A stretch of 39,916 nucleotides of DNA from Candidatus Omnitrophica bacterium CG11_big_fil_rev_8_21_14_0_20_41_12 (GTDB lineage: Bacteria > Omnitrophota > Gorgyraeia > Gygaellales > Profunditerraquicolaceae): positions 1 to 39,916 of the forward strand of contig PCWB01000006.1 in NCBI GenBank assembly GCA_002796135.1, read 5' to 3'. A model generated the notes under the pieces. It was not told the origin of the DNA and made no database searches. It saw nothing but the letters and a program-made list of their open reading frames with translations. Of the stretch, positions 1,324-20,762 are shown in pieces. How positions within the stretch are numbered: position 1 is the first letter of the stretch; each line of letters opens with the position of its first letter. The translations under genes and the position numbers were made by a program.

Positions 1324-1587
1324 ATGCATGATATCCATATTTTAAAAAATATTTTTAAATATCTTCAGGAACAGGAAGATCAAGCTTGCCGTAAGCTCAA
1401 AAAAGTACATTTTTCTATTTCTGAATTCGGCAACTTTAATCAAGAGCATTTCCTGGAGCATTATAGACATGCGGTAAGGGCAACAAGGTTTCAGGGCTTA
1501 GAGATTGCAGTTAAGACCATACCTTTTGGCCCGGAGCTGGAGATTACCGGATTAGAGTTTGCAGGCCAAACCAGTAAAGAAGAATGA
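1324..1587 (+). CDS. HypA-like protein lacking the zinc-binding domain
   Basis: The 87-residue product starts MHDIHILKNI and continues with a helix-strand pattern (KKVHFSISEFGNF) like the nickel-binding domain of HypA, where the N-terminal Met-His pair binds nickel for insertion into [NiFe] hydrogenase. Normal HypA proteins are about 115 residues and have a zinc ribbon with two CxxC pairs. This one has a single cysteine and no CxxC, so that domain is absent rather than damaged. It is the first gene of the hydrogenase operon, and its stop overlaps the next start as ATGA. No Shine-Dalgarno sequence is seen upstream; the start was chosen because it gives the diagnostic His2. The assignment rests on the N-terminal motif, size, predicted fold pattern and context, so it is moderately secure. 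Confidence 0.65.
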   Translation: MHDIHILKNIFKYLQEQEDQACRKLKKVHFSISEFGNFNQEHFLEHYRHAVRATRFQGLEIAVKTIPFGPELEITGLEFAGQTSKEE

Positions 1588-2618
1588 AATACGCAATCTT
1601 AAAAAAATCAGATCTTAATCATTGGCTCAAGCATTTAAAAGATAGGGCCAAGCTTTATGCGGTGCGCAAAAAGGAGAACCTTTTTGTTTTCCGTCCGGTA
1701 AAAGAGGTGCAGGATGTCTGCCTTGATTATATACCTACGATCTTACCGCCTAAGAAATATTATTTTCCGCAAAAAGAAAAATTGATCAAATTCAGTGTTC
1801 AGCCGTTTAAAACAGCCAAGGCGATTGATAAGTTTGAAGATTTTATTCTCTTCGGAGTCCATACCTGTGATATTGCCGGTATGCAGTGTATGGATGTGGT
1901 TTTTAGAGAGGTTCCCGAGGATCCCAATTATCTTAACCGCAAAGATAAGATGACCATTATCGGCATAGAATGTTTAAAATACTGTGATCAATATGCGAAT
2001 TGTACTTCGATGGGAAATCACGTTCCCCGCGGAGGTTATGATCTGATGATGGTGGATCTTGGTGATAAATTAATTATTCATATTAATTCCGAAAAAGGGG
2101 AAAAGCTGGTTACCGGATTGGATTATATTAAAGAGGCTACCCAGGGCCAAATGGATTTGCTTGAGAGCACCCGGGAAGAAAAAAAGAAAATATTTAAAGA
2201 GGAGTTCACCGGCCCGCTTACTAAAGTTTATGATACATTTGATAAGTCCTTTGTTTCTAGTGTCTGGAAGGATGTCGGCAGAAAATGCGTTGCTTGCGGT
2301 AACTGTACTGCAGTGTGTCCGACCTGTTATTGTTTTGATACCCAGGATGAGCTGGATTTATCATTAAATGAGGGGATAAGGTACCGCATTTGGAATTCCT
2401 GCCAGATGGATGACTTTGCCAAGGTTGCCGGAAGAGAGGACTTCCGTAAAGGAAGGGATAACCGCCAGAAACACAGGTATTACCGTAAATTTAAATATCC
2501 GGTTGATAAATTCAACCGTTATTTTTGTACCGGCTGCGGTAGATGCACCCGGGCATGTATGGCTGAAATCAGTTTAGTTGAAACCGTAAATTCCCTGCTT
2601 AGGGAGGAAAAAAAATAG
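1584..2618 (+). CDS. shyB: Group 3b-type [NiFe] hydrogenase (sulfhydrogenase) beta subunit, iron-sulfur protein
   Basis: This 344-residue protein matches the beta subunit of cytosolic sulfhydrogenases (HydB/ShyB) and its relative AsrA. Two ferredoxin-like cysteine sets are visible: C235, C238, C241 and C245 (followed by C248 and C250), and C315, C318, C321 and C325. These would bind two [4Fe-4S] clusters that pass electrons between the flavin subunit and the small subunit. The N-terminal 220 residues hold further conserved cysteines (HTCDIAGMQCMD, ECLKYCDQYANC). The gene overlaps the HypA-like gene by four bases and is followed two bases later by the gamma subunit gene. A GGGAGG ribosome-binding site for that next gene lies inside its 3' end. 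No signal peptide is seen, so it is cytoplasmic. Confidence 0.9.
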   Translation: MKYAILKKSDLNHWLKHLKDRAKLYAVRKKENLFVFRPVKEVQDVCLDYIPTILPPKKYYFPQKEKLIKFSVQPFKTAKAIDKFEDFILFGVHTCDIAGMQCMDVVFREVPEDPNYLNRKDKMTIIGIECLKYCDQYANCTSMGNHVPRGGYDLMMVDLGDKLIIHINSEKGEKLVTGLDYIKEATQGQMDLLESTREEKKKIFKEEFTGPLTKVYDTFDKSFVSSVWKDVGRKCVACGNCTAVCPTCYCFDTQDELDLSLNEGIRYRIWNSCQMDDFAKVAGREDFRKGRDNRQKHRYYRKFKYPVDKFNRYFCTGCGRCTRACMAEISLVETVNSLLREEKK

Positions 2619-2619
2619 A

Positions 2620-3486
2620 ATGTTAGATCGTGAAATACTTTTAGAAAAAATGAGGACTACTCCTTATTTGCCGATGAAGGCTAAAATCATCGAGGCGCAG
2701 ATGGTTACGAGTAAGGAAAAATTCTTCCGTATTCAGCTGGAAAACAAGATTAATTTGGGGCATACTCCGGGACAGTTTGTTATGGTTTCGATCTTCGGCT
2801 TTGAAGAGGCTCCGATCTCAGTATGTTCTTCTCCAAGTGATAAAGGTTATTTTGAACTTACCGTAAGAAGTGTCGGCGTATTTACCGATCGGCTGCATAA
2901 ATTGGAAAAAGGGGACCTGGTCGGTATCCGCGGGCCTTTTGGCAGAGGATTTCCGATTGATAATATGTTCGGTTATGACGTAATGATCGTTGCCGGAGGA
3001 TTAGGTATCGTTCCGCTGCGCTCTTTAATCAGGTATATTATGAGCAATCGTAATGATTTCGGCAATGTGCAGATTTTGCTTGGCTTCAAGAGCTCCAAAG
3101 AGCTTTTGTTTGAAGAGGAAAATAAAGAGTGGATGAAAAGGGCGGAGATTAAATTTAACTGTACCATTGACCGGGCAGACTCGGAATGGAAAGGCAATGT
3201 CGGCCTGATCACGACTCTAATCCCCGGAGTGGATATTAACCCCGCGCGTACCTACGCAGTTGTCGTCGGCCCGCCGATTATGTATAAGTTTGTTATCCGG
3301 GAATTATTAAAGAAAAATATACCCGACCATCAGATTATTGTTTCTCTGGAGAGGCGGATGCGTTGCGGCTTGGGTAAATGCGGGCACTGCCAGGTTGAAG
3401 GGGTTTATGTCTGTCAGTCAGGCCCGGTATTTACTTTTAATGATCTAAGAAAATTTAAAGGAGAGTGCCATGAAAAGGCAGTCTAA
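2620..3486 (+). CDS. shyC: Group 3b-type [NiFe] hydrogenase gamma subunit, FAD/NAD(P)-binding
   Basis: The 288-residue product is a ferredoxin-NADP reductase-family subunit (HydG-gamma/ShyC, related to AsrB). It has an FAD-binding beta barrel with PGQFVMV and a following APISVCSSP segment, and an NAD(P)-binding half with VAGGLGIVPLRSL. It ends in a [2Fe-2S] site formed by C249, C254, C257 and C265. In group 3b enzymes this subunit exchanges electrons with NADP(H) or NAD(H). It should not be confused with the radical SAM maturase HydG encoded further downstream. The gene overlaps the delta subunit gene by 17 bases, which points to coupled translation. Confidence 0.9.
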   Translation: MLDREILLEKMRTTPYLPMKAKIIEAQMVTSKEKFFRIQLENKINLGHTPGQFVMVSIFGFEEAPISVCSSPSDKGYFELTVRSVGVFTDRLHKLEKGDLVGIRGPFGRGFPIDNMFGYDVMIVAGGLGIVPLRSLIRYIMSNRNDFGNVQILLGFKSSKELLFEEENKEWMKRAEIKFNCTIDRADSEWKGNVGLITTLIPGVDINPARTYAVVVGPPIMYKFVIRELLKKNIPDHQIIVSLERRMRCGLGKCGHCQVEGVYVCQSGPVFTFNDLRKFKGECHEKAV

Positions 3487-4234
3487 GCCCAAAGTGGCAT
3501 TTTTTGATTTTACGGATTGCGAAGGCTGCCAGCTGCAGTTTGCCAACATGGGTACAGCTTTACTTGAATTGACTGAGCTTATTGAGATAGTTAATTTCCG
3601 GGAGATTATGTCAGAAGCCGGAGAGGACTATGATATTGCTATTGTTGAAGGCAGTATTACCACTGATAATGATATTGCACGCATCAAAGCTATCAGGGAA
3701 AAGGCCAAAATCTTAGTTGCGCTGGGCGCTTGCGCAGCTACCGGCGGAATAAACGGAATTAAAAACCGCAGTTCTTTAGATTTAGCAAAGCAAAGAGTTT
3801 ATGGCGACAAAGCTGGCCAGATTAATACGATCAAGGTTATGCCGCTTGATGCGGTAGTTAAAGTAGATTACTATATTCTTAATTGTCCGGCTTATATTCC
3901 GGAGATTATCGCGGTTTTAAAAGCAATGCTCTTAGGTAAACCATATCCATTGCCTAACTATCCGGTTTGTGCAGAATGCAAGATGAATGAAAATGTCTGC
4001 CGGTATGAAAAAGACCAGGAATGTATGGGGCCGGTTACCCGCGGCGGATGTAATTCCTGGTGTATTAATAAAGGCAATCGCTGCTACGGCTGCCGCGGAT
4101 TAGTGGATAATCCGGCTGTTGATGCCGCTAAAGATATTTTGCAAAAATACGGTTTAAAAACAGAAGATATCCTCAATAGTTTTACTTTGTACAATGATTC
4201 CCAGGGAGCCAAATATGACCAAGAGTTCAAATAA
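3470..4234 (+). CDS. shyD: Group 3b-type [NiFe] hydrogenase small (delta) subunit
   Basis: This 254-residue protein is the small subunit that carries the electron-transfer clusters next to the active site. The proximal cluster motif DCEGCQLQF (C17 and C20) is intact, followed by EGSITTDND, GACAATGG and NCPAYIPE, the usual order in group 3 and 4 small subunits. The C-terminal quarter is rich in cysteine (CAECKMNENVC and GGCNSWCINKGNRCYGC), providing ligands for the medial and distal clusters. There is no twin-arginine signal, so the enzyme stays in the cytoplasm. The reading frame runs 20 bases into the large subunit gene. Confidence 0.93.
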   Translation: MKRQSKPKVAFFDFTDCEGCQLQFANMGTALLELTELIEIVNFREIMSEAGEDYDIAIVEGSITTDNDIARIKAIREKAKILVALGACAATGGINGIKNRSSLDLAKQRVYGDKAGQINTIKVMPLDAVVKVDYYILNCPAYIPEIIAVLKAMLLGKPYPLPNYPVCAECKMNENVCRYEKDQECMGPVTRGGCNSWCINKGNRCYGCRGLVDNPAVDAAKDILQKYGLKTEDILNSFTLYNDSQGAKYDQEFK

Positions 4235-6026
4235 GATAGATTCGCAAAATTTAAATGTTGATGTGCATTATTTGACCAGGGTCGAAGGCCATGGCAATAT
4301 TGTTGTCGATGTAGCCGCAGGTAAACTTACTAAATGCGAGTTTCAGGTAATTGAATCCCCGCGTTTTTTTGAGTCGATGCTTGTTGGCAGGTCGATCTGG
4401 GAGGCCCAACATATAACCAGCCGGATTTGCGGAATTTGCGCTTGCGGCCATTCTCTGGCCAGCATTAAAGCAGCCGAGGATGCCTTAGGCGTTAGCCCTT
4501 CGGATGAAGTGGTGATGCTCAGAAAACTTCTGTTGCACGCTGAAATGCTGGATAGCCATATTTTACATATTTATGTTCTGGTTGCTCCGGATCTATTAGG
4601 GGTAAAAAGCATCGTGCCCTTAATCAAAACGCACCGGCCGGTAATTGAAATGGCTTTACGCATGAAGCGGATGAGTGATTATGCCGGGGAGGTGCTTGCC
4701 GGCAGGCATATTCATCCGATTAGTTATGTTATCGGTGGGCTTACTCAGCTTCCTTCAAAAGAGAGTTTAGAGAAGCTCCATGGGCTGATGTTGGAATCAC
4801 GCCAAGACGGTGAAGCAACGGTAAAAATAATTAAAACACTAAAATTTCCGCAGTTTGATCGTCCGACGCAATATATGTCGCTTACAAATGATGATGAATA
4901 TGCTATGTATGACGGAGATTTAGTGGTAAACGGAGAAAAGAGCAAGGTGCATGATTACCGCAAGCTTTTTATCGAATCAGTCGTAGATTATTCAAAAGCC
5001 AAGCTATCTAAAATTAACGGCAAATCTTATGCTGTTGGAGCTTTATCGCGTTTTAATAATAATTTTAATAAATTGCACAAAAAAGCTAAGGCCGTAGCAG
5101 CTGAATTAGGGCTAAAATCTCCGTGCCATAATCCTTATCTTAATACCGCGGCCCAGCTTGTGGAGTGGGTGCATTGTCTGGAAGAGTCAATTACGATTCT
5201 GGAGAAGATTCTAAAAAATGGATTAAATAAAGAGAAAATAGTTGTAGCCTCATGGCCGAAAAGAAGCCAAATCGGTAAAATCAAATATGCACCCAATACC
5301 GGAATAGGGTGCGTTGAAGTTCCGCGCGGTTCTTTATTTCATGAATATACAATAGATGATTCTGCTCACCTAACTGCTGCTAATTGCGTAATTCCGACAA
5401 ATCAAAATATGGGTAATTTAGAGGATGATATGCGAAAAATCGTGCCGGAGCTATTAGGTAAAAAGACTCAAGAAGAAATCACCCTTGATCTTGAGATGTT
5501 GGCCCGAGCTTATGATCCCTGCATATCATGCGCTACACATCTGTTGGATGTAAAATTTGTCAATAAAATTGCGGTAATCGGTTTAGGTAACAGTTTAAGG
5601 AGAGACGACGGAATAGGGGTAGTAATTCTGGAATCTCTCCTTAAACATTATAAGCAACCCGGCGTAGATTATCTTAATTTCGGTAGCTGCAGTTTTGACC
5701 TTATCCACCGCCTGCAGGATTACGATCTAGTTTTACTTATCGATGGAATTGCCGCTAATCTAGCGGTTGGAGAATTAAAGATATTTTCTTTGGAGGAGAT
5801 TTCTTTCATAGATAACCAGGAGCCGATCTCATCCCACGAATTAAATCTTAAAGATATCTTTCGATTAGTCCGGCAGCTCAAATTAAAAACTAAGATCTAT
5901 GTGGCCGGCATACAGGTAGGCGATGTTGGTTTTGGTGAATCTCTAAGTGATAGATTAAAAGAAAAATTACAGGATAATATTGCTCAAATCGACAGATTTA
6001 TTCAGAAAAGGAAAGTCCTAGCTTAA
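4215..6026 (+). CDS. shyA: [NiFe] hydrogenase large (alpha) subunit fused to its maturation endopeptidase
   Basis: The first 442 residues form a group 3b-like catalytic subunit. All four active-site cysteines are present: C72 and C75 in RICGICACGH, and C436 and C439 in DPCISCATH. In ordinary enzymes a short tail after that histidine is removed by a separate protease of the HycI/HyaD/HybD family. Here a complete protease follows directly. GLGNSLRRDDGIG (residues 456-468), D510 in LLIDG and H541 in SSHEL match the family's three metal-binding positions. I see no stop or frameshift at the junction (5541-5575). A start at 4194 is possible, but 4215 has AGGGAG seven to twelve bases upstream and lies nearer the usual N-terminus. 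The length of 603 residues equals the sum of the two families. Self-processing is inferred. Confidence 0.93.
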   Translation: MTKSSNKIDSQNLNVDVHYLTRVEGHGNIVVDVAAGKLTKCEFQVIESPRFFESMLVGRSIWEAQHITSRICGICACGHSLASIKAAEDALGVSPSDEVVMLRKLLLHAEMLDSHILHIYVLVAPDLLGVKSIVPLIKTHRPVIEMALRMKRMSDYAGEVLAGRHIHPISYVIGGLTQLPSKESLEKLHGLMLESRQDGEATVKIIKTLKFPQFDRPTQYMSLTNDDEYAMYDGDLVVNGEKSKVHDYRKLFIESVVDYSKAKLSKINGKSYAVGALSRFNNNFNKLHKKAKAVAAELGLKSPCHNPYLNTAAQLVEWVHCLEESITILEKILKNGLNKEKIVVASWPKRSQIGKIKYAPNTGIGCVEVPRGSLFHEYTIDDSAHLTAANCVIPTNQNMGNLEDDMRKIVPELLGKKTQEEITLDLEMLARAYDPCISCATHLLDVKFVNKIAVIGLGNSLRRDDGIGVVILESLLKHYKQPGVDYLNFGSCSFDLIHRLQDYDLVLLIDGIAANLAVGELKIFSLEEISFIDNQEPISSHELNLKDIFRLVRQLKLKTKIYVAGIQVGDVGFGESLSDRLKEKLQDNIAQIDRFIQKRKVLA

Positions 6027-6027
6027 G

Positions 6028-7329
6028 ATGTGTTATGCCATACCGGGAAAAGTTGAAAAAATAGAAGACGGAACGGTTGTCGTAGATTATTTTGGCGAAA
6101 AAAGAAAAGCGCATAATGAGCTGGCTGAAATTAGCGTCGGCGACTACATCTATGCGCAGGGCGGGTTGGTGGTCAATAAAATCTCAAGCGCTGAGGCTCA
6201 AAGCATTCTTGCGGTGTGGAAAGAGACTTTTTTTCAATTGCAGGAAGTGGATTTAAAGCTTTCCCGCTTGAATCTTGGGAATCAAGATGCAGATCAAAAA
6301 CTACTTGAGGTATTAGATAAAGCCAGTCAATCTCAGAAGCTGTCCACCGAAGAGCTTTTGTATCTGCTGGATTTAAAAGATAAGAAGAAGGTCGAGCTAC
6401 TTTTTAAAACCGCTAATTTTCTGCGCCAGAAGTACTTTAAAAATTCCTGCTGTGTACACGGGATAATCGAGATATCCAACTATTGCCGCAGGAGCTGTCA
6501 GTATTGCGGGATAGCATCTTATAATCAAGAGCTAAAGCGCTATCGTATGACTAAGGATGAAATTTTGCAGGCGGCCAAAGAGGCAATTCAGATCCATGGT
6601 TTTAAATCTTTAGTTTTACAGAGCGGCGAAGATTGCGGATATAGTATTGATGAATTAGCCGATATCATTAAACAGATTAAAGAAAAAACCCCCGCGTTAA
6701 TTTTGATTAGTTTCGGAGAGATCGGCATCGAGGGTTTAGAAAAACTCTATCAAGCAGGGGCGCGCGGATTATTGCTGCGTTTTGAGAGCTCCAATCCCGT
6801 ACTTTACAAAAAAATACATCCTGGTATGGATTTAACAAGTAGGCTTGATCATCTGCGTAAGGCCTATGAGATGGGGTATTTAATTCTCACCGGAGGATTA
6901 GTCGGTTTACCCGGACAAAGCAAGGAAGATATTTTAAATGATATATTTTTAAGCAAAGAGCAGCATGCCCAGATGTTTAGTTTCGGGCCTTTTATCCCGC
7001 ATCCGCATACGCCTTTGGCTAAGGAAGATCCTGTAGCGGCCCAGGAGATAATCAAAGTTTTGGCGGTTGCCCGGATTATCGATAATACCCATGCTAAAAT
7101 TCTGGTAACTACGGCACTGGAAACTTTAAATCAGGAGGCGTTAAGGGGCGGGTTGCTTGCCGGGGCAAATTCACTGATGCTTAATGTCACTCCTCTAGAT
7201 TACCGGATGCTTTATTCTATTTATCCTGACCGTGCACATCAGTCTGAAGGTAGCATTGAGCAGATTGAATCCACAGTTGCACTCCTGCGTTCTTTGGGCC
7301 GGGCTCCGACTGATTTGGAGGCGTTTTAA
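6028..7329 (+). CDS. HypC-HydE fusion: [NiFe] maturation chaperone joined to radical SAM [FeFe] maturase
   Basis: Residues 1 to about 75 are a HypC/HupF chaperone. It starts MCYAIPGKV, with the essential Cys2 that binds the iron unit and contacts the hydrogenase precursor. After a helical linker, residues from about 95 to 433 match HydE. The radical SAM motif is C153, C157, C160 in SNYCRRSCQYCGI, followed by LQSGED, a GLVGLPGQS strand and FGPFIPHPHTPL, all typical of HydE. The three cysteines of HydE's optional second cluster are absent, as in many members. HydE acts on the Fe(CO)2(CN) cysteine complex made by HydG during [FeFe] hydrogenase maturation; HypC belongs to the [NiFe] pathway. The gene starts one base after the hydrogenase large subunit stop, and hydG follows five bases later. 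Confidence 0.9.
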   Translation: MCYAIPGKVEKIEDGTVVVDYFGEKRKAHNELAEISVGDYIYAQGGLVVNKISSAEAQSILAVWKETFFQLQEVDLKLSRLNLGNQDADQKLLEVLDKASQSQKLSTEELLYLLDLKDKKKVELLFKTANFLRQKYFKNSCCVHGIIEISNYCRRSCQYCGIASYNQELKRYRMTKDEILQAAKEAIQIHGFKSLVLQSGEDCGYSIDELADIIKQIKEKTPALILISFGEIGIEGLEKLYQAGARGLLLRFESSNPVLYKKIHPGMDLTSRLDHLRKAYEMGYLILTGGLVGLPGQSKEDILNDIFLSKEQHAQMFSFGPFIPHPHTPLAKEDPVAAQEIIKVLAVARIIDNTHAKILVTTALETLNQEALRGGLLAGANSLMLNVTPLDYRMLYSIYPDRAHQSEGSIEQIESTVALLRSLGRAPTDLEAF

Positions 7330-7334
7330 GTTTT

Positions 7335-8726
7335 ATGAAACATATTGATGAGAATAAAATAAATAATTTATTAGCTGATATGGCTAAATTTGACAGGGGC
7401 AGGCTCGATATTATTCTGGATAAAGCCCGCTTGCTTAAAGGCCTTTCTTTAGAGGAGGTTGCCCGTCTTCTGGCTATTGATGATCCGGATTATCTTCAAA
7501 AAATATTTAGCGCGGCTAATTTTGTTAAAGAACAGATCTATGGACAGCGCGTAGTTTTATTCGCTCCTCTTTATATAAATAATTTCTGTTCCAATAATTG
7601 TCTATATTGTGCTTTTCGTTCGGATAACCGGTCACTGCAGCGTAAGGCTCTAAATACCATAGAGATCAAACAGCAGACTGAATGGTTGCTGGAGCGCGGC
7701 CATAAAAGGATACTGATGGTTTCCGGAGAGGCTGTTGTGCAGGGTAAAAACAAGATTGATTATTATGTTGAAAGTATTGCTTCAATTTATGCGGCTGATT
7801 TTAAGGGCAATAGGATTAAACGGGTTAATGTAAATTGTGCTCCGCTTGAAGTTGCGGAATTTAAGAGGCTTAAAGGTGCCGGCATCGGAACTTATCAGCT
7901 TTTTCAGGAAACTTATCATGAAAAAACTTATTCTCAAGTGCATCCTAGCGGCGCCAAGAGCGATCCTGATAACCGGATTGACGCAATTGACCGGGCTTTT
8001 ATTGCCGGGATCGATGATATCGGTATCGGTGTTCTTTACGGCCTGTATAATTATAAGTTTGAGACACTGGCAATGCTTGCGCATGTCCAATATTTAGAAG
8101 CTAAATTTAAAGTGGGGCCGCATACTATATCGGTACCCCGGATTGAGCCGGCATTCGGAACAGATTTTTCGCAGAACATTCCCTATCCATTAAGTGATAC
8201 GGAGTTTAAGAAGCTAGTTGCTGTATTAAGGCTGGCTGTCCCCTATACGGGAATAATTATGTCTACCCGCGAGTCAGCAGCTTTGCGTGACGAGCTTTTA
8301 TCTTTAGGGGTTTCGCAGATAAGCGCAGAATCCCGGACTTCGCCCGGAGGCTACTCTTTTAGTGGTGATAATAAGGATAGTGCTGCGCAATTTTTTACCG
8401 GCGACCAAAGGAGTTTAGATGAAATTGTTTTAACGTTGATTGAAAAAGGATTTATCCCTAGTTTTTGTGCCGCTTGTTACCGTAAAGAGAGGACCGGGGA
8501 GGCTTTTATGAAATTAGCCAAGCCCGGCACGATTAAGGGAAAGTGCAGTTTAAATGCTTTGGTTACTTTGCGGGAGTATATCATTGATTTTGCTTCGCCT
8601 AAAGTAAAAGGATGCGGTGAAAAACTTATTGAAGATCTAAGCAGAGAGTTAAACCTTGATGATCGGGGCTTACTGCAGGATATTTTTGAACACGTTGAAA
8701 ACGGCGCCAGAGATGAATTTGTTTAA
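7335..8726 (+). CDS. hydG: HydG, radical SAM tyrosine lyase making CO and cyanide
   Basis: The 463-residue protein has the radical SAM motif C85, C89, C92 (FCSNNCLYCAF). Its C-terminal motif CX2CX22C (C378, C381, C404) has exactly the spacing of the second, dangler-iron cluster of HydG; this motif is absent from the related thiamine enzyme ThiH. HydG splits tyrosine into p-cresol, CO and cyanide and assembles an organometallic iron-cysteine complex for [FeFe] hydrogenase. Here it is the last gene of a [NiFe] hydrogenase operon, five bases after the HypC-HydE fusion. Neither HydF nor an [FeFe] catalytic subunit is in the window. Identification as HydG is firm; its role in [NiFe] maturation is inferred from context. 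Confidence 0.93.
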   Translation: MKHIDENKINNLLADMAKFDRGRLDIILDKARLLKGLSLEEVARLLAIDDPDYLQKIFSAANFVKEQIYGQRVVLFAPLYINNFCSNNCLYCAFRSDNRSLQRKALNTIEIKQQTEWLLERGHKRILMVSGEAVVQGKNKIDYYVESIASIYAADFKGNRIKRVNVNCAPLEVAEFKRLKGAGIGTYQLFQETYHEKTYSQVHPSGAKSDPDNRIDAIDRAFIAGIDDIGIGVLYGLYNYKFETLAMLAHVQYLEAKFKVGPHTISVPRIEPAFGTDFSQNIPYPLSDTEFKKLVAVLRLAVPYTGIIMSTRESAALRDELLSLGVSQISAESRTSPGGYSFSGDNKDSAAQFFTGDQRSLDEIVLTLIEKGFIPSFCAACYRKERTGEAFMKLAKPGTIKGKCSLNALVTLREYIIDFASPKVKGCGEKLIEDLSRELNLDDRGLLQDIFEHVENGARDEFV

Positions 8727-8823: not shown

Positions 8824-9648
8824 ATGAAAATTATAGCTAAAGAGGTTATCGCAGATTGTCCCGGAGCAAAGATTGTCAAGCTTGTCCTTGCTTCTGCACA
8901 GATCAGCCAGAAAGCTCAAGCCGGCCAGTTTGTTGTGGTCATGGTCGATGAAAAAGGAGAGCGAATTCCGCTTACTATTGTTGATGCGGATAGCCAGGCT
9001 AATACCATAACGCTTATTTTTCAAGTGGTAGGGCTGACGACAAAACTTTTAGGTGCTCTTGATGTAGGGGATACTTTGTATGCGTTGGTCGGCCCGCTGG
9101 GCCAGGCTACAAAGATAAAAAAATACGGGGAAATTATTTTAGTCGGCGGAGGAGTCGGGATTGCTGAAATTTATCCTGTAGCCAAAGGCCTAAAAGCTGC
9201 GGGAAATAAAGTGACGGTTATTCTAGGAGCCAGAACCAAAGAAGCATTGATTTTAGAAAAAGAATTAAAAAGTCTAGCAGATAAAATATATTTACTAACC
9301 GATGATGGCTCATCCGGAGAACAAGGGTTCACTACGGTTGTTTTAGAAAAGTTGCTTAAGAAGGATAAGCATGATTTAGTGTATGCGGTAGGGCCGATTC
9401 CGATGATGAAAAAAGTATCGGAATTGGGGCTTGCTTCTAAGATTAAAACAATTGTTTCATTGAATGCTTTGATGGTTGATGCAACCGGGATGTGCGGCTG
9501 CTGCCGGGTTAGGGTGAATGGTGAGGTAAAATTCAGCTGCGTTGACGGCCCGGAATTTCTGGCTGATCAAGTTGATTGGGAAGAACTGGAAAAAAGAAAT
9601 TCCATGTATAGGGTTAAAGAAAAACATATCTGTAAATTAAAATTTTAG
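8824..9648 (+). CDS. nfnA: NfnA/SudB-type FAD and [2Fe-2S] subunit
   Basis: This 274-residue protein belongs to the ferredoxin-NADP reductase subunit alpha family (NfnA, also called sulfide dehydrogenase beta). It has an FAD barrel (AGQFVVVMVDEKGERIPLT), a nucleotide-binding half (ILVGGGVGIAEIYPVAKG, YAVGPIPMMK) and a C-terminal [2Fe-2S] site using C224, C226 or C227, and C239. In NfnAB the pair performs flavin-based electron bifurcation between NADH, ferredoxin and NADPH; relatives also serve as electron-input modules. The NfnB partner follows within 20 bases. It resembles the hydrogenase gamma subunit in fold but lies under its own promoter. Confidence 0.88.
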   Translation: MKIIAKEVIADCPGAKIVKLVLASAQISQKAQAGQFVVVMVDEKGERIPLTIVDADSQANTITLIFQVVGLTTKLLGALDVGDTLYALVGPLGQATKIKKYGEIILVGGGVGIAEIYPVAKGLKAAGNKVTVILGARTKEALILEKELKSLADKIYLLTDDGSSGEQGFTTVVLEKLLKKDKHDLVYAVGPIPMMKKVSELGLASKIKTIVSLNALMVDATGMCGCCRVRVNGEVKFSCVDGPEFLADQVDWEELEKRNSMYRVKEKHICKLKF

Positions 9649-9667
9649 ACCCCCTTTCCCGTTTAGC

Positions 9668-11101
9668 TTGGAAACAGTTTCCGGGCTAAAGGGGAAACGG
9701 TTTCCGACTATGAGAGAATTGGTTGCGGATAAAAGAACAGAAGGTTTTAATGAAGTAGTATCCGGGTATTTAGAGCAGGAGGCCCTATCTGAGGCCGGCC
9801 GCTGTATACAATGCAAAAATCCTACCTGTATCTTAGGTTGTCCGGTAAAGATAGATATTAAAAAATTTATCCTGCAGATCACTAAAAAAGATTATCCCGG
9901 CGCCTACTCTACTATTCGCCAAACGAATAATTTTCCTTCTATCTGCGGAAGGGTTTGTCCGGCAGAATATCAATGTCGTAGATCCTGTGTATTGAACAAA
10001 GGTAAATTAGCATATTGCAGTCCGGAGGCAGTTAACATCCATTTTCTGGAAAGGTTTATCGGCGACTACGGAATGCAAAATAATTTGGAGGTACCGATGC
10101 AGCCGGATGGCCGGTTCTCTGAAGTCAAGATGGCGGTTGTTGGCAGCGGCCCGGCGGGTTTATGTTGCGCTGGTGAATTAGCCAGAAAAGGAGTAAAGGT
10201 GACGGTTTTTGAGGGGCTGCAGAGTTGCGGCGGTGTCTTAAGATATGGCATCCCGGGGTTTCGTCTTCCGCGTGAAGTTCTGGATTATGAGATCAATTGC
10301 TTAACGAAATTAGGGGTAAAGTTTATTACCAATACCATTGCCGGCAAGGTGGTTCTTTTAGAGGAATTATTTCAACAGGGATTTAACAGGATTTTCTTAG
10401 GCCTTGGCGCAGGGGTGCCGTCATTTTTGGGGATCAAAGGAGAAAATCTTTGCAATGTTTATTCGGCTAATGAATTCCTGACCCGGGTTAACCTGATGTC
10501 TGCCTATAAATTTCCCGAATATCATACGCCGGTAAATATTGGTAAACATGTTTTGGTAATTGGAGGGGGTAATACTGCCATGGATGCAGCGCGCTGTGCT
10601 TTACGTCTGCAGAAGATGAGCAGCATAGAACCGCACGTTACGGTTGTTTATCGCCGGACATTAACTGAGATGCCGGCGCGCAGGCTTGAGATTCAACATG
10701 CCCAAGAGGAGGGGATCAAGTTTAAATTTCTTACTCAACCCAAGGAATTTGATTCTGATGATCAGGGTTTTGTGCGCCAATTAAATTGCCTGATCTGTGA
10801 ACTCCAAGATGCGGATGAATCCGGTAGAAGAAAGCCTGTTGTTCTGCAAGGCAGTGATTTTAGTATTCCCTGTGATCTGGCGATCATTGCTGTGGGCCTG
10901 GGAGCAAATCAGGTTTTAACCGGTGCCACTCCCGGATTAAAAACCGATAAATACAAAGATATTATAATTAATTCTGCGACGATGGAGACTTCGATTAAGC
11001 ATGTTTTTGCCGGCGGAGATATTGCCGGCGGAGAAGGAACGGTTATTGAGGCGCTCGGTATGGCCAAAAAAGCGGCAATAAGTATCCTGCAAAATTCTTG
11101 A
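9668..11101 (+). CDS. nfnB: NfnB / GltA-type glutamate synthase small subunit, NADPH-dependent FAD protein
   Basis: The 477-residue product has two N-terminal [4Fe-4S] cysteine sets (C46, C49, C54, C58, and the later CGRVCPAEYQCRRSC). These are followed by two dinucleotide folds: VVGSGPAGLCCAGELA for FAD and VIGGGNTAMDAARCA for NADPH, with a C-terminal FAGGDIAGGEGTVIEA. This is the layout shared by NfnB and the glutamate synthase small subunit. The start is uncertain. The upstream segment KGKRFPT resembles the conserved region before the first cysteine of this family, favouring the TTG at 9668; ATG at 9710 is the alternative. Neither has a clear ribosome-binding site. With nfnA before it and a glutamate-synthase-like gene after it, it may serve NADPH-ferredoxin transhydrogenation, glutamate synthesis, or both. 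Confidence 0.87.
   Translation: METVSGLKGKRFPTMRELVADKRTEGFNEVVSGYLEQEALSEAGRCIQCKNPTCILGCPVKIDIKKFILQITKKDYPGAYSTIRQTNNFPSICGRVCPAEYQCRRSCVLNKGKLAYCSPEAVNIHFLERFIGDYGMQNNLEVPMQPDGRFSEVKMAVVGSGPAGLCCAGELARKGVKVTVFEGLQSCGGVLRYGIPGFRLPREVLDYEINCLTKLGVKFITNTIAGKVVLLEELFQQGFNRIFLGLGAGVPSFLGIKGENLCNVYSANEFLTRVNLMSAYKFPEYHTPVNIGKHVLVIGGGNTAMDAARCALRLQKMSSIEPHVTVVYRRTLTEMPARRLEIQHAQEEGIKFKFLTQPKEFDSDDQGFVRQLNCLICELQDADESGRRKPVVLQGSDFSIPCDLAIIAVGLGANQVLTGATPGLKTDKYKDIIINSATMETSIKHVFAGGDIAGGEGTVIEALGMAKKAAISILQNS
9671..9705. repeat. Tandem palindromes GGAAACnGTTTCC at the 5' end of nfnB
   Basis: GGAAACAGTTTCC (about 9670-9682) and GGAAACGGTTTCC (about 9693-9705) are two near-identical 13-base palindromes, 23 bases apart centre to centre. 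They lie in the region around the two possible nfnB start codons. A weaker outer pairing joins GTTTAGC (9661-9667) to GCTAAA (9685-9690). The arrangement could be a protein-binding site or an RNA hairpin affecting nfnB translation. Confidence 0.5.
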
Positions 11102-18007: not shown

Positions 18008-19117
18008 ATGCAGGCTTATCTCGTTTTAGAAGATGGTACAATATTTAAAGGTCGCTCCTTCGGCGCAAGCGGGGAGGCTCTGGGCGAGGTTGTGTTTAAT
18101 ACCAGCATGGCCGGATATCAGGAGATCATTACCGATCCTTCCTATAGCGGCCAGATTGTGGCAATGACCTATCCTTTGATCGGAAATTATGGTATTAACC
18201 ATGAGGATGCGGAGAGCCGTAAACCATTTTTAGAAGGTTTTGTAGTTAAGGAGTACAGTAAATTAGCCAGTAACTGGAGAAAAGATCAGGATCTGGGCGA
18301 TTATCTAAAAGAGAATAATATTTTAGCCATTGAAGGAATCGATACACGCGCACTTACTTTGCATATCAGAGAGAAAGGCGCGATGAAAGCAATTTTATCT
18401 ACGCTTGATTCCAGCGAACAGAGCCTGGTGACTAAAGCAAAAAAAAGCCGCGGCTTGATGGGTTTGGATTTAGTCAAAGAAGTTACTATCCCGAAGAAAT
18501 ATGTTTATTGGCAGTCTAAGGAAAACAAATACAAAGTTGTAGTCCTGGATTGTGGCGTGAAGTTAAATATATTAAGAGAATTAAAACGCCTTAAATGCAA
18601 TGTCACGGTTGTACCTGCCTGGACAACTTATCAGGAGATCCTCAAGGAGAATCCTGACGGGGTCTTACTTTCTAACGGGCCGGGGGATCCGGCAGCAGTT
18701 GGTTATGTGATTAAAACAGTGGCTAATTTAATCGGCCGGCTGCCGATTTTTGGAATTTGTCTGGGGCATCAGATGCTTGGGCTGGCTTTCGGGGGTAAAA
18801 CTTATAAACTTAAATTCGGCCATCATGGGGCAAATCATCCGGTAAAAGATTTAAGAACCGGTAAAATTTCTATAACCAGCCAGAATCATGGATTCTGCGT
18901 GAGTATAGATTCTTTAAATAAAAAAAATATTGAGTTGACTCATCTGAACTTGAATGATGAAACTTCAGAGGGCTTGCGCCATAAAAAGCTGCCTGTATTT
19001 TCCGTACAGTTTCATCCTGAAGCTTCTCCCGGGCCGCATGACGCACAGTATTTATTTGCTGAGTTTTTGAAATTAATGCAGAAATCAAAAAAAATAAAAT
19101 ATGCCAAAACGCACTGA
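18008..19117 (+). CDS. carA: Carbamoyl-phosphate synthase small subunit (glutaminase)
   Basis: This 369-residue subunit releases ammonia from glutamine and channels it to CarB. The N-terminal domain carries [21 protein letters not shown]. The amidotransferase domain has the nucleophile in [10 protein letters not shown] and the [11 protein letters not shown] histidine-glutamate pair. Length and start match the family. The gene follows pyrG by two bases and overlaps the carB start by 17 bases, so the two subunits are probably translated together. Confidence 0.97.
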
Positions 19118-20762
19118 TCTAAAAAAGATCTTAATTATTGGAAGCGGGCCGATTGTTATCGGTCAGGCCTGTGAATTTGATTATTCCGGCACTCAGGCTT
19201 GTAAGGTTTTAAAGCAGGAGGGGTATAAGGTAATTTTAGTCAATTCTAACCCGGCTACAATTATGACCGATCCGGAGGTTGCCGATAGAACTTATATTGA
19301 GCCGATTACCGCAGAGATGGTTGAAAAAATTATCGCTAAAGAAAGGCCGGATGCGCTCTTGCCTACTCTTGGCGGCCAGACTGCTCTGAATACGACTGTG
19401 GAATTAGATAAAAAAGGAGTCTTAAAAAAATATAAGGTCGAGACTATCGGAGCCAATATCAAAGCGATAAAAAAAGGAGAAGACCGTAAGTTGTTTAAGG
19501 CGGCAATGAAAAAAATCGGTTTAGACCTGCCTAAAAGTGACCAGGCCGATAATTTAAACGAAGCGATCTCTATCGCTAAAAAAATAGGCTTTCCTTTGAT
19601 TATCCGTCCCAGTTTTACTATGGGAGGAGCAGGTGGATCAATTGCTTATAATCTGGATGAGTTCAAGCTTTTGGCTAAACGCGGATTAGAATCCAGCATG
19701 ATCAGCGAGATCCTGGTTGAGGAGTCTGTGATCGGTTGGAAGGAATTTGAGTTAGAGGTTATGCGTGATTTAAAAGATAATGTAGTGATTATTTGTTCTA
19801 TTGAGAATTTTGATCCTATGGGCATACATACCGGAGACAGCATTACCGTTGCCCCGATCCAAACATTAACGGACAAAGAGTACCAATTAATGCGCGATGC
19901 AGCTTTGGCTTGTATCCGGGAGATCGGCGTTGAAACCGGAGGTTCCAATATTCAGTTTGCCATTAATCCTGAAACCGGCAGGATGGTGGTTATTGAAATG
20001 AATCCTCGTGTTTCGCGCAGTTCAGCGTTGGCTTCAAAGGCTACGGGATTTCCTATTGCTAAAATTGCCGCTAAGCTTGCGGTGGGCTATACCCTTGATG
20101 AAATTCCTAATGATATTACTAAATCAACGCCTGCCTGTTTTGAGCCGGCGATTGATTATTGCGTGGTTAAAGTACCGCGGTTTACTTTTGAAAAATTTGC
20201 TTTGGCAGATAATACCTTAGGAATATCGATGAAGTCGGTAGGGGAGGCCATGGCTATCGGCCGCACATTTAAAGAAGCCCTGCAAAAGGGATTACGTTCT
20301 TTAGAAATTAAAAAGTTCGGCTTGGAGAGCATTGTTTTTAATAATCTGGAAGATATGCGAATAGAAAAAGAGATTTTAGATAAGATCTATCAGAAGCTGA
20401 AGCAGCCTAATGCCGAGAGGATTTTTTATATCGGGGATGCTTTTCGCGCTAAATTAGATATTGAAGCAATCCATGATTTAACTAAAATTGACCGCTGGTT
20501 TTTGCATAATATTAAAGAGATCATTGATTGTGAAAGAGAGTTGATTGAGAACAAAAATAATATAACTCATGAATTACTCAGGCGCGCCAAGGAATATGGT
20601 TTTAGTGACAGGCAATTGGCTAAAATTTTATCTTTAGATGAGACAGTGGTTTATGATCTAAGGAAGTCCATGAATATAACGGTGGATTTTAAGCTGGTTG
20701 ATACCTGCGCTGCAGAGTTTAAGGCACACACCCCTTATTTTTATTCTACCTACGAAAAATGA
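19101..20762 (+). CDS. carB: Carbamoyl-phosphate synthase large subunit, N-terminal half only (split CarB)
   Basis: The 553-residue product covers the carboxyphosphate-forming ATP-grasp half ([60 protein letters not shown]) and the oligomerisation domain, ending [21 protein letters not shown]. Full-length CarB is about 1070 residues. The stop falls at the boundary before the second ATP-grasp half, which makes carbamoyl phosphate from carbamate. The next gene has its own promoter 32 bases later, and none of the reading frames downstream encodes the missing half. This matches a clean gene split rather than a frameshift. Split carB genes are known in some archaea and deep-branching bacteria; the second half should lie elsewhere in the genome. 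Confidence 0.95.

Follow-up and report, generated by a model that had tools for sequence, protein, structure and literature searches.

The HypABCDEF proteins mature [NiFe] hydrogenases and the HydEFG proteins mature [FeFe] hydrogenases. To our knowledge, HydE is known only from [FeFe] hydrogenase assembly. A 2025 review describes six Hyp proteins as necessary for the anaerobic synthesis of the NiFe cofactor, with cyanide derived from carbamoyl phosphate and the anaerobic source of CO unresolved, and it mentions neither HydG nor tyrosine (PMC12134894). HypC proteins bind to the NiFe large subunit, to which they deliver the iron unit via Cys2; for E. coli, the proposed ligands of the iron are Cys2 and possibly His51 of HypC and Cys41 of HypD (PMC12134894). 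In the [FeFe] system, HydG splits tyrosine, yielding CO and cyanide, and the [Fe(CN)(CO)2(Cys)] that it builds is passed directly to HydE (PMC12752695). Here, we analysed a protein in which HypC and HydE are joined, encoded by a 433-aa ORF (6028-7329, + strand) in a 39,916-nucleotide stretch of DNA from Candidatus Omnitrophica bacterium CG11_big_fil_rev_8_21_14_0_20_41_12 (contig PCWB01000006.1), hereafter called the window. This fusion is very probably the core of a hybrid [NiFe] maturation route that operates without HypD, HypE and HypF. The route rests on gene content, linkage, conservation and the exclusion of HypD, while its substrate, hand-over and delivery steps would follow the chemistry of HydG, HydE and HypC. 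Searches of open-licence PMC full text returned no paper on a HypC-HydE fusion or on HydG-based NiFe maturation.

The fusion system belongs to neither of the known maturation systems, although its components come from both, and the NiFe hydrogenases that it would serve look ordinary. In Omnitrophota it takes the place of the usual NiFe assembly proteins, which suggests an as yet undescribed route to the NiFe metal centre. With HypABCDEF it shares a HypC carrier with Cys2, the same kinds of client and the HycI protease, but it has no HypD, HypE or HypF, its HypC is fused to HydE and lacks the conserved His, and HydG is present. With HydEFG it has in common HydG and a HydE domain of the same fold with most of the conserved residues; here the difference is that HydE bears HypC and a Cys-Cys-x-His motif, and that HydF and HydA are absent from 39 of the 59 genomes with the fusion. 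The HypX pathway of C. necator also has an extra enzyme to provide a diatomic ligand of the NiFe site. However, HypX supplements HypCDEF under oxygen, whereas the fusion system is without HypDEF and uses radical SAM enzymes. HupF and HoxL, which are extended HypC paralogues, likewise have an added C-terminal part, but theirs is short and works with HypCD, whereas the extension of the fusion is an entire radical SAM enzyme. The features of the locus are as follows.

1584..2618, + strand: [NiFe] hydrogenase beta subunit (NF040829, 239 bits)
2620..3486, + strand: [NiFe] hydrogenase gamma subunit (PRK08345, 281 bits)
3470..4234, + strand: [NiFe] hydrogenase delta (small) subunit (NF040836, 173 bits)
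4194..5561, + strand: [NiFe] hydrogenase large (alpha) subunit, group 3b (top match P. furiosus sulfhydrogenase I alpha, 229 bits)
5562..6026, + strand: HycI-type maturation protease (TIGR00072, 102.5 bits, cut-off 47)
6028..6252, + strand: HypC domain of the fusion, residues 1-75 (Pfam HupF_HypC; Cys2 kept, Gln44 at the place of the canonical His)
6253..6312, + strand: linker, residues 76-95 (gap between the HypC and HydE matches)
6313..7326, + strand: HydE radical SAM domain, residues 96-433 (TIGR03956; top structural match T. maritima HydE)
6448..6459, + strand: fusion-specific Cys141-Cys142-x-His144 (invariant in 53 fusions)
6484..6507, + strand: radical SAM motif CX3CX2C with C153, C157 and C160 (from the sequence; invariant in 53 fusions)
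7335..8726, + strand: HydG (TIGR03955, 487.7 bits, cut-off 312)
8824..11101, + strand: NfnAB-like pair, downstream on the same strand (PRK06222, 348 bits; gltA, 492 bits)

The hydrogenase of the window belongs to group 3b (sulfhydrogenase-type). Its alpha, beta, gamma and delta subunits are all present and the four active-site cysteines are kept, with RICGIC and DPCISC intact in the large subunit. The alpha subunit is the likely client of the fusion. The NfnAB-like pair is found at the same place in close relatives (L099, L100, L103-L105). Further along the window, a CarB-like ORF (19101-20762) encodes just 553 aa, presumably about half the usual length of CarB, and the next gene is unrelated.

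The original prediction, which had assigned residues 1-75 to HypC, with the start MCYAIPGKV and Cys2, and the remainder to HydE, was borne out for both parts. Pfam HupF_HypC (PF01455) covers residues 1-64 with 52.1 bits against a cut-off of 28.5, and Cys2 is invariant in an alignment of 53 fusions. Pfam Radical_SAM covers residues 147-305, and the NCBIfam profile of HydE (TIGR03956) covers residues 96-417 with 249.3 bits, just below its curated cut-off of 254.6. The other radical SAM profiles score lower (PylB 156, BioB 101 and HmdB 92 bits), which rules out an assignment of the domain to any of these families, including the BioB or PylB that the prediction had named as what would overturn it. 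The HydE profile scores 304.5 bits, above the cut-off, on a homologue in which HydG is fused as well (L109, genome G077). In a phmmer search against solved structures, the nearest were T. maritima HydE, over residues 94-427, and HypC, over residues 1-67. The AlphaFold model, computed from 53 homologues, has a pLDDT of 92.7 and a pTM of 0.92, and its top structural match is again T. maritima HydE, with a target TM of 0.96 and an rmsd of 1.5 Å. C153, C157, C160, LQSGED and PHPHTPL are all found at the positions that had been claimed for them. Furthermore, the phmmer alignment shows that the positions of Q107, S108, R159, T268, T269, M291, Y303 and Y306 of T. maritima HydE, which we take to line its active site, are kept in the fusion.

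The fusion was found in 59 of the 384 Omnitrophota genomes sampled, which are mostly metagenome-assembled genomes (MAGs), so that all results given here are comparative genomics. An artificial assembly join of two unrelated genes, for which the oddity of the architecture alone would speak, can be practically dismissed, since full-length homologues with 45-77% identity recur across dozens of genomes that are independent of one another, span many families and include separately deposited MAGs. This also disposes of misassembly as the other way in which the prediction could have failed. A few of the copies are truncated at a contig end; the one in G285 breaks off within the HydE part, and HypC is not visible there. 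Some matches are limited to residues 124-430 and might be taken for HydE without HypC, but these ORFs begin with MCYAIPGK and have a shorter linker, as is found in one sub-lineage of the fusions (L079-L094). In G077, a single 915-residue ORF (L109:8651-11398, G077:C1) is a triple fusion of HypC, HydE and HydG, with a HydG score (515.5 bits) that, like its HydE score, is above the cut-off. It lies downstream of subunits of an Mbh-type membrane hydrogenase and a HycI protease. One scan of a genome collection with short exact patterns returned fusions in Omnitrophota only, and a scan of viral contigs using the fusion alignment returned no relative. The N terminus of a HydE in G191 (L097:8053-9336) is extended differently, by about 80 residues that at first sight are unrelated to HypC.

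The fused HydE appears as a sister lineage to known HydE. In a tree of HydE domains, a long branch with full support (100/100, length 0.93) separates all 58 fusions from the stand-alone HydEs, including those from the same genus. All 53 aligned fusions have Cys2, Gln44 and the radical SAM cysteines. Cys141, Cys142 and His144 are likewise invariant in this set, and they are missing from all 15 stand-alone HydE proteins compared. The His of HypC (H51 in E. coli) is Gln in all aligned fusions, and it is His in all stand-alone HypC proteins of HypD-bearing relatives. Since both this His and HypD are missing, Cys-Cys-x-His is a candidate stand-in for the two.

The strongest evidence for a hand-over from the HydE domain to HypC, as the original prediction had suggested, is found outside the gene: HypD, HypE and HypF are lacking, most of the fusion genomes also lack HydF and HydA, HydG is kept, and no genome has the fusion together with HypD. 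A NiFe large subunit is present in 59/59 fusion genomes and in 0/6 relatives that have only an [FeFe] hydrogenase. In a profile search of these 65 genomes, HypD was above the cut-off in 0/59 and 0/6, and neither HypE nor HypF was above its curated cut-off in any (0/65 each). Across the 384 genomes, 137 have HypD above the cut-off and none of these carries the fusion. When the comparison is limited to the 203 NiFe-bearing genomes, defined by a large subunit at E <= 1e-10, 128 have HypD, 58 have the fusion, 17 have neither and none has both (Fisher p ~ 9e-36, a statistic that ignores shared ancestry). Genomes with HypD and genomes with the fusion are interleaved within families, and the window's own family contains both. 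The 17 genomes with neither mean that absence of HypD is by itself no proof of replacement. They are mostly incomplete MAGs; G023 (99% complete) and the single-contig G073 are near complete, so these genomes may have a further route or a missed sequence.

Diverged or unassembled HypD, HypE and HypF could in principle carry out the maturation and leave another role to the fusion. The genomes are mostly incomplete, and some of them encode HypE-like proteins that score 80-91 bits. Even so, this is a very slim chance, given that HypD is found in 0/59 fusion genomes but was readily detected in 137 other Omnitrophota genomes. The HypE-like protein that was inspected, in G141, was rejected as HypE: it lacks the C-terminal Cys and adjoins a cysteine-desulfurase-like gene, and a similar match occurs in G051, which has no NiFe hydrogenase. 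HypB was found in 1/59 fusion genomes and in 1/8 of the HypD genomes tested and is thus not diagnostic in Omnitrophota. It is absent from nearly all NiFe-bearing Omnitrophota tested, the HypD-bearing ones included, and nickel insertion in this phylum may therefore use another GTPase or none.

HydE and HydG are [FeFe] maturases by family, and an [FeFe] hydrogenase could be the client of the fusion, in which case HypC would serve for docking or be vestigial. HydA and HydF do occur, together, in 20 of the 59 fusion genomes. However, both are absent from the other 39, among them the window's own genome (95.8% complete), where neither was found, so that service to an overlooked [FeFe] hydrogenase is ruled out for most genomes. 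Moreover, the relatives with only an [FeFe] hydrogenase have a stand-alone HydE and no fusion, and where HydA and HydF accompany the fusion, a second, stand-alone HydE is usually located beside HydF. We consider this explanation very unlikely.

HydG was above the cut-off in 57 of the 59 fusion genomes; it was not detected in G029 (96% complete) and G285. At 29/56 fusion loci it is encoded on the same strand no more than 1.5 kb away, and the triple fusion and the window are to be added to these. The HydG of the window has both cluster motifs intact and aligns to the solved HydG structure 4wcx with 456 bits, including the auxiliary-cluster cysteines. In fusion genomes that have an [FeFe] hydrogenase, HydG is usually located with HydF and the stand-alone HydE, and it is apparently shared by both systems. 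One subtype of HydG has CTAGYRC in place of the auxiliary-site CX2C (L060, L097, L106-L109, L112, L114, L115, L117, L118). This subtype also adjoins a stand-alone HydE (L097) and is thus not specific to the fusion.

The simplest reading of the locus is a relay from HydG to the HydE domain, to Cys2 of HypC and to the large subunit. HydG would convert tyrosine to CO and cyanide and build an Fe-CO-CN-cysteine unit, which the HydE domain would receive and process. Instead of combining with a second one to give the 2Fe precursor that HydF receives, the iron unit would be transferred to Cys2 of the attached HypC, which would dock on the NiFe large subunit and insert it; nickel insertion and then C-terminal cleavage would follow. 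The proposed transfer of a HydE-side product to Cys2 of HypC, in this form, fits all findings. The unit would have to be adjusted on the way, perhaps on the HydE domain, because the HydG product carries two CO and one CN, against one CO and two CN at the NiFe site. In a more specific version, which we regard as somewhat better than an even proposition, all diatomic ligands would come from tyrosine via HydG, and the fused HydE would remodel Fe(CO)2(CN) to Fe(CN)2(CO) and park it on Cys2 of HypC and Cys141, Cys142 and His144 instead of on HypD. The points against the route are this mismatch in ligand ratio, the absence of the HypC His51, the two genomes in which HydG went undetected and the 17 NiFe genomes with neither HypD nor the fusion. 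The mismatch (PMC12752695) would also fit an arrangement in which HydG supplies part of the ligands, for example CO, and some unrecognised source, distinct from HypE and HypF, provides the cyanide. Cyanide is, however, also made by HydG, and HypE and HypF were not found in the 59 fusion genomes; to this arrangement we give only a small chance. If the relay from HydG through the fusion is true, two maturation systems that are treated as separate become linked, anaerobic CO for the NiFe site has an enzymatic source that can be tested by labelling, and a smaller gene set could be used to make NiFe hydrogenases in other hosts. The sharp question would then be how Fe(CO)2(CN) turns into Fe(CN)2(CO).

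The client hydrogenases bear on this question. In NiFe structures, the cyanides are held by residues of the E(A/V)PRG and PT motifs. Group 3b large subunits from fusion genomes and from HypD genomes were compared, and the E(A/V)PRG motif, the PT motif and the four cysteines are present in all of them; an altered cyanide pocket, as a mark of inverted ligands, was looked for in these subunits and is absent. The large subunit of the window shares 83.3% identity with its counterpart in G037, a HypD genome. As the cyanide pocket is the same in both sets, the product in fusion genomes is most likely, judged from these residues, the usual NiFe(CN)2CO, and a variant in which the NiFe site itself retains two CO and one CN is unlikely. 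The fusion accompanies group 3b and group 4 Mbh-like hydrogenases and a Tat-associated uptake hydrogenase. The operon of the last, in G163, holds the small subunit, the large subunit, the protease, TatC, HypA, HypB, HydG and HypC-HydE, and it reads as a maturation operon in which HypDEF has been replaced. In the window, the alpha subunit and the HycI protease form a single in-frame ORF (4194-6026). In relatives at 90% identity, the two are separate genes that overlap by a few bases, and the length of the junction differs by one base. Either the substrate is naturally fused to its own protease here, or the single ORF results from an error in the sequence.
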